The notes under the pieces: model-generated | Told to the model about the DNA's origin: nothing | Database searches by the model: none | What the model saw: only the letters and a program-made list of their open reading frames with translations | Assembly (NCBI GenBank): GCA_905233215.1 | Contig: CAJODC010000014.1 | Location: forward strand, 1-39,877 | Direction of reading: 5' to 3' | DNA from: an uncultured Synergistales bacterium | GTDB lineage: Bacteria > Synergistota > Synergistia > Synergistales > Aminobacteriaceae | DNA length: 39,877 nucleotides | Part shown: in pieces, positions 3,348 through 11,729 of the stretch | How positions within the stretch are numbered: position 1 is the first letter of the stretch | How the letters are laid out: each line of letters starts with the position of its first letter | Position numbers and translations under genes: made by a program

Positions 3348-4985
3348 ATGAAGAAAATTTTTGTACTGTCATTTATTGCGGTGATGATGTTAAACACGTC
3401 AGCATTTGCGGAAAATTACGCAGAAGGTGAAGCATTAGCAGTTTTCCGGGTTCCTGAAGGCGTGAGCGTTTCGGCAGCAAGCGTTAATGTTGTTGAGGCA
3501 GCAGAGGAAATTGGCGCGTCAGTTGCCGAGACCTACGAAACGTTATCAGAGATTGAGGGAAAAATATTCGTCCTCGTCCGTTCGTCAGCAAAAACAACCG
3601 AAGAACTAATTTCCGAACTCAAAGCCCGGCCAGATGTGATTACAGCCTCGCCGAATTATTACGCTCACAGTCTCAACGCTGAAGTGAAATCGTCCGTTAT
3701 GCCGAATGACCCTAGCGCGGATTTATGCTGGGGACTCAAGGCCATTAACGCCCCTGACGTTTGGGAGGATACAGCCGGGACACAGCGTATTTATGCGTGC
3801 GTTCTTGACACTGGAATCTACAAGCACCCCGATTTGACGGACAACATAGCAACAGAATACGGCTACAACACTCAGACAGTGAGCGGTGAACCTGATTTGA
3901 GATTCGGAAGCTGGGACGCTGATTTTAACGGTCATGGGACTCACGTTGCCGGGATAATAGGCGCGGTCGGAAATAATAATATCGGAGTCGCCGGGGTAAA
4001 CTGGAATGTGAAAATTATTCCCGTGAGAGTTTTCGACAACATAGCTTCTTACGAGACAATCAATTACGAAATACGCGCGCTGAATTACATTGCCAATCTT
4101 CTGCGGAAAGATTCTAACCTGAGACTCGCTGCTCTGAATTTCTCGCTCGGTGCTGTACTTCCTGTAACGCCTGACGAAATGCAGAATGATGTTTACTACA
4201 TGGCCTATAAAGCTATCGACTCTCTGAACAGGGTACTGATTGTAGCCGCTGCTGGAAATGCTGGTGTTGAAGTCGGAGCTTCCACTCTTTTCGATTCCCC
4301 TAGAGGCAGTAGCGACTTCATGAAGGGAATGTATTTCTATCCTTCGTCATTCACAGGGCTGAATAATCTTGTTGTTGTCGGTGCTGTTGCTTCAGACGAC
4401 ACGGCAGCATATTTCACGAACTGGGGCGACAAAGTAGACATAGCCGCGCCGGGAGTCGGTATTCTCAGCACTTATTCACCCATCGCAGTAGAAGACAGAG
4501 TCCCGGCCATGTACCAATACTTATCCGGCACATCAATGGCAGCACCACACGTTACGGGAGCGGCGGCACTCTTAATGTCGGCATTTCCGAGCGCAACACC
4601 TTCACAGATAAAATCAGCACTTCTTGAGGGAGCGAACAAGGACAAAAATCCGCTGGTCTATCCTTACGCTGGATTTGTGAAAAAGACAGTGGAACGCGGC
4701 ACAGAGTTAATCGAATCAAGAATAGAGCAGGGAATTATTCCGCCTGAATCGCGTGATGTTGAGGTTGAGAGAATCACACGCGCGGTTGAAGAGGAATACG
4801 CGCCGTATAAACAGTTTGACGGGAACGGGAGAGTCAGCAGGACGGGACTTCTTGACGTTAAAGCGGCGTATGAGATTCTCGAAAGGAGTTCGCACGGAAG
4901 CGGCACATCTTCCGGGTGCAATGCAGGAATCACGGCGGTGATTGTAGTTCTTGCTGGAGGATTCATTCTCAGGCGCAGGGGCTGA
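3348..4985 (+). CDS. Secreted subtilisin-like (S8) serine protease with Synergist-CTERM tail
   Basis: The 545-residue precursor begins with a signal peptide (residues 1-21, cut after AFA). A propeptide-like region of about 85 residues resembles fervidolysin-type prodomains. The S8 catalytic domain shows Asp154 (VLDTGI), His196 (NGHGTHVAG), the oxyanion Asn304 (AAGNAG) and Ser396 (SGTSMAAPHVTGAAALL), so the triad is complete. The C-terminus is Ser/Gly-rich with Cys524 in SSGCNAG, then one hydrophobic segment and the basic end RRRG. This is a Synergist-CTERM sorting signal and predicts anchoring or processing at the envelope. A strong AAAGGAGG supports the start. Its likely role is extracellular protein breakdown feeding peptide uptake, in line with the peptide operon at 24494-31105; that link is inference. 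Confidence 0.93.
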   Translation: MKKIFVLSFIAVMMLNTSAFAENYAEGEALAVFRVPEGVSVSAASVNVVEAAEEIGASVAETYETLSEIEGKIFVLVRSSAKTTEELISELKARPDVITASPNYYAHSLNAEVKSSVMPNDPSADLCWGLKAINAPDVWEDTAGTQRIYACVLDTGIYKHPDLTDNIATEYGYNTQTVSGEPDLRFGSWDADFNGHGTHVAGIIGAVGNNNIGVAGVNWNVKIIPVRVFDNIASYETINYEIRALNYIANLLRKDSNLRLAALNFSLGAVLPVTPDEMQNDVYYMAYKAIDSLNRVLIVAAAGNAGVEVGASTLFDSPRGSSDFMKGMYFYPSSFTGLNNLVVVGAVASDDTAAYFTNWGDKVDIAAPGVGILSTYSPIAVEDRVPAMYQYLSGTSMAAPHVTGAAALLMSAFPSATPSQIKSALLEGANKDKNPLVYPYAGFVKKTVERGTELIESRIEQGIIPPESRDVEVERITRAVEEEYAPYKQFDGNGRVSRTGLLDVKAAYEILERSSHGSGTSSGCNAGITAVIVVLAGGFILRRRG

Positions 4986-7365: not shown

Positions 7366-7401
7366 CAGGGCATGGGAAAAAATCCTATGCTCTGTTTTTT
7401 T
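7366..7401 (+). terminator. Rho-independent terminator after the binding-protein gene
   Basis: CAGGGCATGGGA (7366-7377) pairs over 12 positions, two of them G-U, with TCCTATGCTCTG (7383-7394). Seven T follow. Strong intrinsic terminator. Confidence 0.88.
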
Positions 7402-7402
7402 G

Positions 7403-7411
7403 TGATAAAAT
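7403..7411 (+). promoter_or_regulatory. Extended -10 promoter placed for a leaderless start at 7418
   Basis: TGA-TAAAAT lies directly after the T-run of the terminator. Six bases separate the -10 from the ATG at 7418, so transcription would begin at or next to the start codon. No ribosome site is present between them. Confidence 0.5.
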
Positions 7412-7417
7412 CTCCGC

Positions 7418-8491
7418 ATGAACAAGCGCAGAATTGACGAAATCGGAATAAGATACGTTGAAAGCCTGAAACTTTACGAAGAGTATGCCGCAAGAATCCG
7501 CAATCTGATTCAAGACCTCGTTGAGGTTGAAGGCGTTGAGTTTTATGCGATTGACGGCTGGGCTGAGAGTCCTGCCGAACTTTTGCACATTCTCTCAACT
7601 CTCGAAGAAAAAGATCTCGCAGGTGTTGACTTGGTTACTGTGAGAGTGCTTTTGCGTTTCCCTGCTGACGTTCTCAGAATAGAGTCTCTCATCAAGTCTG
7701 AATTTGATGTTGACGCTTCACGCTCTCTCCCCTCAAATTCAAGAATGCTGAAAGATCCCGGACGTTTCGGTTATCCTGCTGTCGTCTACGTGCTTTCGCT
7801 TTCACATTCACGTTCAAACCTCAAGGAGTGGGAAAAGTACAAAGACCTCAATTTTCGTCTTGAACTCCGTACGCTTTTGCAGGAGGCTTGGGCTACGATA
7901 GTTCCGAAAGTCAGCCAGACAGTAACAAAAGAATCCGAAGAAGAATTTACACGTGAATTATTCCTATTGGGGGCGATGCTTGAGAAGGCCGACAAGGGAT
8001 TTTTGACACTTCGAGAGGAAATCAGGAACGAGGCTGTTTTAGTCCCTCCGTCAGAAAAAAGAGACACTGAAAAAATTACGGCTGAAACAGTTTTCACTGA
8101 TGAAGAACTTTACCAGCTCTTCCGTGATGATCCTTCGCTTCTCGGAAAATGGAACGCCAACGCAATCTCGGCAGGTTTCCCGGAATTTACACCCGATGCT
8201 GATTACCTGCGTGAAAGTTTCTCTCACCTCTGCGGAATTTTGAGGGCTTCGGGAATTGATACGATGTCCGAAGTGAAAAAGTTTCTCGATGACATGGACA
8301 ATGACGGCAAAGGTCAACGACAGCTCAAGACGCTTCATGAATCTTTCAGCGATAATGACAACTGGAGGGTTGATCCTTTTTCGGCGATTTTCCTTTTGGT
8401 ACTGAATTTCAAATGGGACATACTCAAAGACAAAGATTTGGCAGGTCTGGGAATCAAACGAGGCTCAGACCGTATCAGCGGTAAAGATTAG
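7418..8491 (+). CDS. RelA/SpoT-fold protein with altered catalytic residues
   Basis: This 357-residue protein has the layout of a small (p)ppGpp synthetase domain in residues about 15-170. DLVTVRVLLRFPADV (71-85) matches the DxxGxR motif, with Asp71 and Arg76 kept but Gly replaced by Thr. FGYPAVVYV (117-125) matches GYRSxH with Gly-Tyr kept but Ser and His lost. FRLELRTLLQEAWATI (146-161) matches the ExQxRT region, but the metal-binding Glu is Arg147 and the Gln is Glu149. By family knowledge that should abolish or change pyrophosphokinase activity. Residues about 180-357 form an acidic extension that I do not recognise. There is no ribosome site. It may sense nucleotides or act as a regulator without making (p)ppGpp. 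Fold call moderately sure; function unknown. Confidence 0.7.
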   Translation: MNKRRIDEIGIRYVESLKLYEEYAARIRNLIQDLVEVEGVEFYAIDGWAESPAELLHILSTLEEKDLAGVDLVTVRVLLRFPADVLRIESLIKSEFDVDASRSLPSNSRMLKDPGRFGYPAVVYVLSLSHSRSNLKEWEKYKDLNFRLELRTLLQEAWATIVPKVSQTVTKESEEEFTRELFLLGAMLEKADKGFLTLREEIRNEAVLVPPSEKRDTEKITAETVFTDEELYQLFRDDPSLLGKWNANAISAGFPEFTPDADYLRESFSHLCGILRASGIDTMSEVKKFLDDMDNDGKGQRQLKTLHESFSDNDNWRVDPFSAIFLLVLNFKWDILKDKDLAGLGIKRGSDRISGKD

Positions 8492-8507: not shown

Positions 8508-9143
8508 ATGGCAAGAAGCATAATATTATGGTCGATAGTGTCGTACTTAATCGGCTCATTCCCAACCGGCTACATCGTAACAAAACTCTTCCACAAAGAC
8601 AAAGACGGTAAACATGACTGGCTCGACATTCGCACAATAGGTTCAGGCGCAATCGGTGCCACTAATGTCGGCAGGGCGATGGGGCCTGTGTGGTCATGGT
8701 TCACAGCGATAGTCGACATGCTCAAGGGTGCGTTCGCTCTTCTTTTGGCTGCGCAGATCGAAGCCCCTGAAACTCAGGAGATAATAGCAGCGGTTTCGGC
8801 GTTCGCTGTTGTACTCGGTCATAATTATCCCGTCTGGTTGAAGTTCAAGGGCGGCAAAGGCGTGGCGACAAGTTACGGAACATTGTTCTTCATTTGGCCG
8901 TATAAGTCATTCGCTGCCGTTCTTCTCTGCGGCGGACTCTGGTACATCATCAGGGGTACAACACGAATCGTCTCCGTAGCGTCAATGGTCTCGCTCGCTT
9001 GCGTGTCAGTGTGTTTCGCAATGCTCGGTGCGCCGGTAACGTTCACAATTCTCGCCGCGCTTCTCGCTCTTCTCTGCGTTTGGAGACACCGCACTAACAT
9101 TGTGAGAATAATCAACGGTACTGAAAACAAGTGGCATAAATAG
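8508..9143 (+). CDS. plsY: Acyl-phosphate:glycerol-3-phosphate acyltransferase
   Basis: PlsY uses acyl-phosphate to acylate glycerol-3-phosphate, the first step of membrane phospholipid synthesis. The 211-residue protein has five to six membrane segments and the three family motifs: YLIGSFPTGYI near residue 13, IGSGAIGATNVGR near 45-57 and GHNYPVWLKFKGGKGVATSYG near 105-125. The second motif usually reads GSGN; here the Asn is Ala. The start is supported by AAAGGAG. It follows the RelA-like gene by 16 bases and is probably co-transcribed with it. A terminator follows. Confidence 0.95.
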   Translation: MARSIILWSIVSYLIGSFPTGYIVTKLFHKDKDGKHDWLDIRTIGSGAIGATNVGRAMGPVWSWFTAIVDMLKGAFALLLAAQIEAPETQEIIAAVSAFAVVLGHNYPVWLKFKGGKGVATSYGTLFFIWPYKSFAAVLLCGGLWYIIRGTTRIVSVASMVSLACVSVCFAMLGAPVTFTILAALLALLCVWRHRTNIVRIINGTENKWHK

Positions 9144-10592: not shown

Positions 10593-11141
10593 ATGGCAAA
10601 TAATACACTTGGCTATGTGGTCATTGACGGAAGCGAAACTGTCATAAGAGGAGCAGCGTTAATCACAGACATGAAGGGATTTCCTGTTGACTTTGTGCGC
10701 TCCGAGCCTTTGAGACCGGATCAAATCTCAAAAATCTTGTACGGCGAGTCATTCGGGAAATACGCGAAGGAAAAACTTGTGCTTGAGAGCCTGATTGACG
10801 CTGTAGAGTCTGACCCTCAGTTATGGATATGCAATGACAGCGACATTCTCACGCCCTTACGAAACAACAGCAGGGTCAAAAGCGTGCTGCTCGAAGAATC
10901 GCCTCATGTGCCTCTTGACGCTGCCGGTCATGTCGAAGCTACAGCGGATCCGGGAGTGTTCCTGATACAGGCCGAGCCTAACGGAAACCCATTGAGGGCT
11001 CAATTCCCGGCAGGAGTCAGGCCGGAGGACGTTCAGCAGACAGCGGCAATCTTGACGGAAGCGGCACAGACTATGAATGTTCTTGAGCCTTTCACGAGAG
11101 TCGAGAAAGCGATGACTTTTCTTGCTACAGGACTGAGATAA
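10593..11141 (+). CDS. Unrecognised 182-residue protein
   Basis: I do not recognise this protein. It has no signal peptide or membrane segment and looks like a compact acidic cytosolic protein: a beta-rich N-terminus (LGYVVIDGSETVIRGAALI) and a helical C-terminus (about 140-182). The ribosome site AAAGGAAATTG supports the start. The stop TAA abuts the next ATG (TAAATG at 11139-11144), so the two unrecognised proteins are translationally coupled and probably work together. Upstream is aspartate kinase; downstream are the basic partner and an S1 RNA-binding protein. A role linked to RNA or translation is only a guess from context. Confidence 0.75.
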   Translation: MANNTLGYVVIDGSETVIRGAALITDMKGFPVDFVRSEPLRPDQISKILYGESFGKYAKEKLVLESLIDAVESDPQLWICNDSDILTPLRNNSRVKSVLLEESPHVPLDAAGHVEATADPGVFLIQAEPNGNPLRAQFPAGVRPEDVQQTAAILTEAAQTMNVLEPFTRVEKAMTFLATGLR

Positions 11142-11729
11142 ATGGGACTTCGTGATTTTTTCACACGACATGTTTCAAAAAGGGTAAACGTTTACAGAAT
11201 TGATGACTTCAGCGTTGAGCCTCCTGAAGTCGTCAAGATGCCCAAGAGAGTTAAAACCGTCAGCAAAAAGCCTGAAGTGTCATGCAAAGTGTCAAGGCCC
11301 GTGAATTTTTCCGTCCTGAAAGAGAAAATGACCGTTCCTGCGAAAAGAGTCAAACTCAAGGGCAACAGCGCAATCTCAAAGAGTGTACGCTTCAAGAAAT
11401 ATGTGAAAGAAGACATAAAAGTTCATCATCATTCTTTCAGCAAAAAGCCTGACACAACAAGAATGACCAAACAAATACAGGCCTTGCCGCAGGAACGAGA
11501 AAATATATTGAAGACGATGAAGAACCGCCCCGAGACTGCAAAAGGAGAGGTATTGCTTGCGTGTTTCGGTCCGATAGTTGAAGGCAGCGTGTTAAAATTA
11601 GTGTTGAATAAACAGCGCGGTACACTTTTGGTCTGGTACAAGTCCTCAAGCCGTCAGCTAAAAGCAAAGTACGTTTACCTAGTGCGGAGATTTGGCGCAG
11701 GCGGAAAACCTGAGTGGCGTTGGCTGTAA
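11142..11729 (+). CDS. Unrecognised basic 195-residue protein
   Basis: I do not recognise this protein. Residues about 1-110 are very rich in Lys/Arg and low in hydrophobic residues (KMPKRVKTVSKKPEV, PAKRVKLKGNSAISKSVRFK), with HHHSF near 99-103, and look disordered. A small folded part follows (about 134-195, GEVLLACFGPIVEGSVLKLV, ending PEWRWL). The high charge would suit binding RNA or DNA. It starts right at the stop of the previous gene, with AGGA in that gene's end as a weak ribosome site. An S1-domain RNA-binding gene follows after 31 bases. Confidence refers to being a real gene. Confidence 0.72.
   Translation: MGLRDFFTRHVSKRVNVYRIDDFSVEPPEVVKMPKRVKTVSKKPEVSCKVSRPVNFSVLKEKMTVPAKRVKLKGNSAISKSVRFKKYVKEDIKVHHHSFSKKPDTTRMTKQIQALPQERENILKTMKNRPETAKGEVLLACFGPIVEGSVLKLVLNKQRGTLLVWYKSSSRQLKAKYVYLVRRFGAGGKPEWRWL

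Follow-up and report, generated by a model that had tools for sequence, protein, structure and literature searches.

The gene at positions 7418 to 8491 of the window (the whole stretch of 39,877 nucleotides that was analysed) encodes a protein that is judged, from its residues, to be a non-catalytic pseudo-synthetase. It belongs to a family, here termed pseudo-SAS, whose ancestry in the RelA/SpoT (RSH) superfamily is secure by sequence comparison and which is confined to Synergistota, as far as searched. What does such a protein do? The reading we lean towards, and hold to be somewhat probable, is of a protein incapable of productive ATP binding that would serve as the cytosolic binding partner of a short tag on a membrane protein with TPR repeats.

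The host is a member of Synergistota whose named relatives, Synergistaceae and Fretibacterium MAGs, come mostly from ruminants. The family is present in 84 of 188 Synergistota genomes, beside an intact canonical Rel. The host genome also encodes a canonical Rel (774 aa, full RelA_SpoT domain), and basic alarmone metabolism is therefore independent of the pseudo-SAS gene. The features of the locus are:

7401..7411, + strand: extended -10 promoter element TGTGATAAAAT, its end 6 nt upstream of the pseudo-SAS ATG
7418..8491, + strand: pseudo-synthetase gene (pseudo-SAS), 357 aa; open reading frame and coordinates confirmed
7535..8032, + strand: synthetase-like RelA/SpoT domain, residues ~40-205; catalytic residues lost; dN/dS 0.037
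8081..8488, + strand: all-helix C-terminal domain, residues ~222-357; no known structural match found
8508..9143, + strand: plsY (glycerol-3-phosphate acyltransferase); PF02660, 154 bits

An element of the TGTGATAAAAT type lies 6-7 nt upstream of the start codon in 19 of the 22 genus loci compared; loci L016 and L017 carry the variant GTGATACAAT at the equivalent position, and no extended -10 element was seen at locus L009. As the element is only 6-7 nt from the start codon across genus loci, the pseudo-SAS transcript is probably leaderless, and plsY is probably cotranscribed with it.

The synthetase-like domain and its active site

How much is left of the synthetase active site? The DxxGxR motif reads D71-L-V-T74-V-R76, GYRSxH reads G118-Y119-P120-A121-V-V123 and ExQxRT reads R147-L-E149-L-R151-T152; the former donor segment sRxK, an ATP contact, is lost and reads G47-W48-A49-E50. 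The protein keeps D71, R76, G118, Y119, R151 and T152, and the lost catalytic positions are those now occupied by W48, E50, T74, P120, A121, V123, R147 and E149. A sequence-only reading of the locus had taken DxxGxR as kept, which holds for the Asp and Arg but not for the Gly, replaced by Thr74. It was correct in finding Gly-Tyr retained, Arg147 and Glu149 in place of the Glu and Gln of ExQxRT, and the Ser and His of GYRSxH gone (A121, V123), and the Arg of that motif is lost too (P120); the change in the donor segment had gone unmentioned. An alignment of homologs, which it had proposed as a check, bears out conservation of the replacements: R147, E149 and P120 are invariant across the 21 closest relatives, and replacements common to all of these are due neither to sequencing error nor to chance.

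In SaRelP, ATP and Mg are bound by R78, K80, S84, K88, R91, D107, R112, E174 and H190 (PMC5794853). By alignment two of these nine are kept, the equivalents of D107 and R112 being D71 and R76. The Mg-binding pair D107/E174 of an active SAS is broken, with the Asp present as D71 and the Glu now R147, and among the ATP contacts R78, K80, S84, K88, R91, R112 and H190 only the R112 equivalent (R76) survives. Loss of synthetase function is strongly supported by the replacement of catalytic residues across the family.

The homology itself is secured through intermediate relatives, as direct Pfam similarity is weak: PF04607 scores 16.2 bits against the window protein alone, below the cut-off of 27. 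The scores are 59, 56 and 37 bits in members of lineage f4, and 29.5 bits in one f6 member. The least diverged members (56-59 bits) retain GYRS and EIQVRT, and one of the family, L054, matches B. subtilis YwaC on its own at 1e-10. PDB searches with the single protein or a 22-row profile gave marginal matches only; the match to RelQ/RelP structures required the broader A2 alignment, whose 29-row family profile finds them best over residues 45-217 (E 4e-10). The RelA/SpoT ancestry proposed earlier is thus upheld, both by this structure match and by f4 scores of up to 59 bits. An AF2 model of the whole protein, built with 22 close relatives, has pLDDT values of about 28-48 for the greater part of residues 1-220 and is unusable in the N-terminal half; the synthetase-like fold is therefore assigned by sequence homology and not from the model, and with such low pLDDT a Foldseek search of the whole-protein model means little. 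Pfam matches to DUF3320, FokI_D3 and L-PSP were rejected, being below cut-off and not common to the family, and low-scoring PDB matches to leukotriene hydrolase, SecA and troponin are attributed to chance.

Beyond the synthetase-like domain there is an extension, as had been noticed, although its length is about 150 residues (about 205-357) and not 170. Modelled alone by AF2, residues 205-357 form an all-helix domain with good confidence (pLDDT 86, pTM 0.79); Foldseek searches of PDB and BFVD with this domain brought no significant hit.

Decay and selection within the family

The loss of catalytic residues is graded. An alignment joined 44 members of the family to eight SAS relatives from plasmids and phages. 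None of these eight outside relatives has lost the donor Arg or Lys, the Asp, Gly or Arg of DxxGxR, the His, or the Glu or Gln of ExQ. Only two of the 44 family members, both of one lineage, keep the catalytic Glu (SaRelP E174); elsewhere the position holds R, T, H, S, K, I or Q. L054 is near-intact, with DLSGVR, GYRSIH and EIQVRT all kept; L056 lacks the His, and L053 the Gly, His and Glu. Members of f6 have His at the position of the catalytic Glu, those of f1 vary there between R, T, S, K, I and Q, and in f5 the D, GY and donor segment have all been lost too. A stepwise decay is thus preserved, from the near-intact L054 through the partial L056 and L053 to the complete loss in f5, and with these steps at hand the change from an enzyme to a probable binding protein is open to direct study. 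Annotation by RelA/SpoT domain would mislabel some members as (p)ppGpp synthetases.

Could the replacements represent a different chemistry? An active enzyme might carry out another pyrophosphate or nucleotidyl transfer via R147/E149 or other residues; R147 and E149 are invariant within the genus and close genera, and the protein is under strong purifying selection. Sister lineages, however, have T, H, S, K, I or Q at these positions, a mixture that argues for release from catalysis and against a new fixed chemistry, and seven of the nine SaRelP ATP/Mg ligands are gone. We consider altered chemistry quite improbable; the earlier suggestion of a differently acting nucleotidyltransferase finds no positive evidence, the residue that replaces the catalytic Glu being variable across the family.

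With respect to the outside relatives the family forms one clade (100/100), in which branches are long and the order of the deep splits is unsure. For 11 genus sequences (55 pairs) the median dN/dS comes to 0.037 over residues 1-205 and 0.10 over the remainder, rough values given that synonymous sites have almost saturated (pS about 0.69). The protein is nevertheless clearly constrained, the dead domain more so than the rest. A copy in an f1-assigned genome (L058; G103:C215, 5459 bases) is, together with its TPR gene, nearly identical to the f5 copy L057, and represents either a misbinned contig or a recent transfer.

Such constraint on a dead domain also fits an inactive nucleotide sensor, in which the ATP donor half is dead and the acceptor half (G118-Y119 and R151, with D71 and R76) would bind GTP, GDP or (p)ppGpp and signal the binding to PlsY or the TPR partner. 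Across the 29 rows of the family alignment G118, Y119 and R151 never vary and D71 hardly does; the synthetase-like half is the slower-evolving one; and in toxSAS it is the acceptor Tyr that coordinates the base (PMC11782079). Both f1 and f6 conserve GY, D71 and R151, so that a ligand could still be bound, which counts against the partner model. The conserved residues may, however, be structural, and f5, from which D, GY and the donor segment have all gone, still has both the TPR linkage and the C-terminal domain, the last 40 residues of which are still recognisable there. The sensor, one of the roles that the sequence-only reading had put forward, is a possible function to which we give a minority of our belief; with the f5 pocket gone and its TPR linkage and C-terminal domain kept, we do not favour it.

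Genomic neighbours and a tagged TPR protein

That the gene precedes plsY, as had been pointed out, is borne out by the 16 nt between its stop codon and the plsY start and by the PF02660 match. The binding-partner reading draws on another neighbour. A large TPR gene on the same strand lies directly upstream of the pseudo-SAS gene in f4, f5, f6 and several (early) f1 genera, and in f5 within about 20 nt. In the window the neighbours are a transporter binding protein gene and plsY. The link to plsY is common but not universal: plsY is directly downstream in every genus locus checked, and in 37 loci of other genera it adjoins in 11, lies 1.8-3.7 kb downstream in 10 and was not found within the available locus sequence in 16. 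In two of these 10 the intervening gene is ADP-forming acyl-CoA ligase-like (L064) or AlaX-like (L054). The loci where plsY is not within the available sequence include those of f5, f6 and several f1 genera, and the TPR-gene neighbourhood is more ancient than the plsY link.

A regulator of PlsY or phospholipid synthesis, acting independently of the TPR protein, would account for the short plsY gap throughout the genus, for adjacency in the 11 other-genus loci and for the 10 more at 1.8-3.7 kb. It would not account for f5, f6 and the f1 genera where plsY is not seen nearby, and the TPR link spans more lineages; we regard it as unlikely.

The TPR proteins of f1 and f6 begin with a conserved tag, roughly M-x3-L-x2-W-L, a short spacer and G-L-P-V (LxxWL...GLPV); in the window's genus L-L-L-A-P-L stands where others have G-L-P-V. 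After the tag come an acidic low-complexity linker, one apparent transmembrane helix (by inspection) and the TPR repeats. The linker varies greatly in length between species. Basic residues precede the transmembrane segment, and by the positive-inside rule the tag is suggested to be cytosolic. The tag was detected with A3 and A6 profiles plus inspection, a tag-only alignment being too poor in informative positions, and was seen in 13 genera with pseudo-SAS (12 in f1, one in f6). Where the two genes are unlinked, as in G097, G036 and most of the window's genus, the tagged TPR orthologue is encoded elsewhere. In the host genome it is at G000:C2:13969-15156 (L120:1189-2376; L145) and begins MEQDLFEWLNSKRVEDNGTSLLLAPLS. 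An LpxL/HtrB-like acyltransferase gene lies on one side of it, on the opposite strand, and on the other side are genes that by eye resemble LutC/LUD, asparaginase and GTPase Der. The N-termini of the f4 and f5 TPR proteins are unlike the f1/f6 tag. In f4 (L053, L054) the protein starts with some 100 residues of another kind and its linker contains LxxFL-xxP-like motifs, perhaps an older form of the tag.

Are the gene and the tag lost together? In genus g17 (G101, G102) no pseudo-SAS gene was found, and the TPR orthologue (117-125 bits) starts at the transmembrane helix; tag and linker are absent, and the upstream gene ends adjacent, leaving no room for a tag. The closed genome G030 is without both genes, which its congeners G031 and G032 carry side by side. 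A gene missing from a fragmented MAG (G070, G072, G075, G099 and others) did not enter the loss count, and G058 and G070, whose TPR open reading frame runs off the contig start, were excluded from the judgement of the tag. With two clear correlated-loss events only, the link of pseudo-SAS and tag is suggestive, not proved. In G039, G100, G105 and G106 the pseudo-SAS gene is present and no TPR orthologue was found, perhaps because the profile is too insensitive.

A possible envelope system and its known relatives

For the binding-partner model, then, speak the RelA/SpoT homology, the graded catalytic loss, purifying selection, the TPR neighbourhood, tag conservation and the correlated losses; the four genomes with no TPR orthologue found and the differing f4 and f5 N-termini count against it. 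According to this model, an ancestral SAS became catalytically dead and was retained as the partner of a bitopic membrane protein. The pseudo-SAS, presumably with no catalysis left, would dock on the short cytosolic N-terminal tag, and the TPR repeats would lie across the membrane from it. The pair may serve cell-envelope or lipid homeostasis, as the plsY linkage hints. More tentatively, and with rather less confidence than we place in the binding partnership, the two proteins could form an envelope system specific to the phylum. The dead alarmone synthetase would be its cytosolic receptor, for a short linear tag on a membrane-anchored TPR protein, and would couple the envelope to phospholipid synthesis via its operon partner PlsY, the SAS lineage having its nearest known outside relatives on mobile elements.

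Do these mobile relatives point instead to a degenerate toxSAS-type toxin or defence gene? Like toxSAS, CapRel and PDC-S33, the protein combines a single SAS domain with a C-terminal extension, for about 350 aa in all. The nearest relatives found outside the family are PDC-S33-like; these are plasmid- or prophage-borne, and two of them score 53-63 bits against the PADLOC candidate PDC-S33 (63 bits for L090). In contrast, the same model gives the window protein 16.6 bits over 88 of 349 positions, short of a full-length match. The toxSAS, CapRel and PDC-S33 proteins belong to mobile elements and keep their catalytic residues, whereas pseudo-SAS is chromosomal, conserved and catalytically dead, with a vertical, phylum-wide distribution beside housekeeping genes. 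toxSAS enzymes rely on the donor site (PMC11782079), and in the alignment the window protein lacks the intact site of toxSYNTH. No antitoxin gene or fused antitoxin domain was found, the neighbours being the transporter binding protein gene, plsY and, in deep lineages, TPR genes. A degenerate toxin or defence gene seems to us very improbable, and the toxin-like enzyme suggested earlier finds no support, given the lost donor site and an ancient neighbour that is no antitoxin but a TPR membrane protein.

The synthetase domain is homologous to that of RelP (YwaC/SAS2) and RelQ (YjbM/SAS1), and the D, R, GY and RT positions are kept; the window protein differs in lacking the catalytic Glu, the donor-site residues and the His, and in adding a helical C-terminal domain of ~150 residues. 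It has no fused hydrolase. Tde-SAS of Treponema denticola, of the DsRel (SAS-TPR) family, is an active SAS with a fused TPR domain as a brake, and so gives a precedent for pairing SAS with TPR (PMC10434055). The tie between a SAS domain and TPR repeats is similar, but here the TPR part is a separate membrane protein (no TPR match was found in the window protein) and the synthetase is dead. A Limnohabitans plasmid (L091:2950-4389) encodes an intact SAS domain with a TPR-like C-terminal part, a DsRel-like fusion of the two parts that are encoded by neighbouring genes in the present family.

Dead RSH domains occur in multidomain proteins, SpoT[Hs] of Moraxellaceae and the hydrolase domain of RelA[hS] being examples given in the excerpted part of a 2011 census, where Synergistetes appear only under Rel (PMC3153485). 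These resemble pseudo-SAS in that a dead catalytic domain is retained by selection; they differ in having a second active or regulatory domain in the same protein, whereas the present family is of stand-alone SAS origin and has a separate partner. In the literature searched (inactive SAS; Synergistota and ppGpp), no earlier report of a stand-alone dead SAS-derived pseudoenzyme family was found. New here are the TPR neighbour of the pseudo-SAS gene, the conserved tag and the correlated loss. A named putative partner and a short tag make a candidate pair that is open to a direct binding test.

Two other sites in the window may be mentioned. At 10593-11729 two adjoining open reading frames (182 and 195 aa) have no Pfam matches and are flanked by genes for aspartokinase and an S1-domain-like protein. 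The subtilase encoded at 3348-4985 has the C-terminus SSGCNAGITAVIVVLAGGFILRRRG, which seems to resemble a protein-sorting signal of the Synergist-CTERM type.
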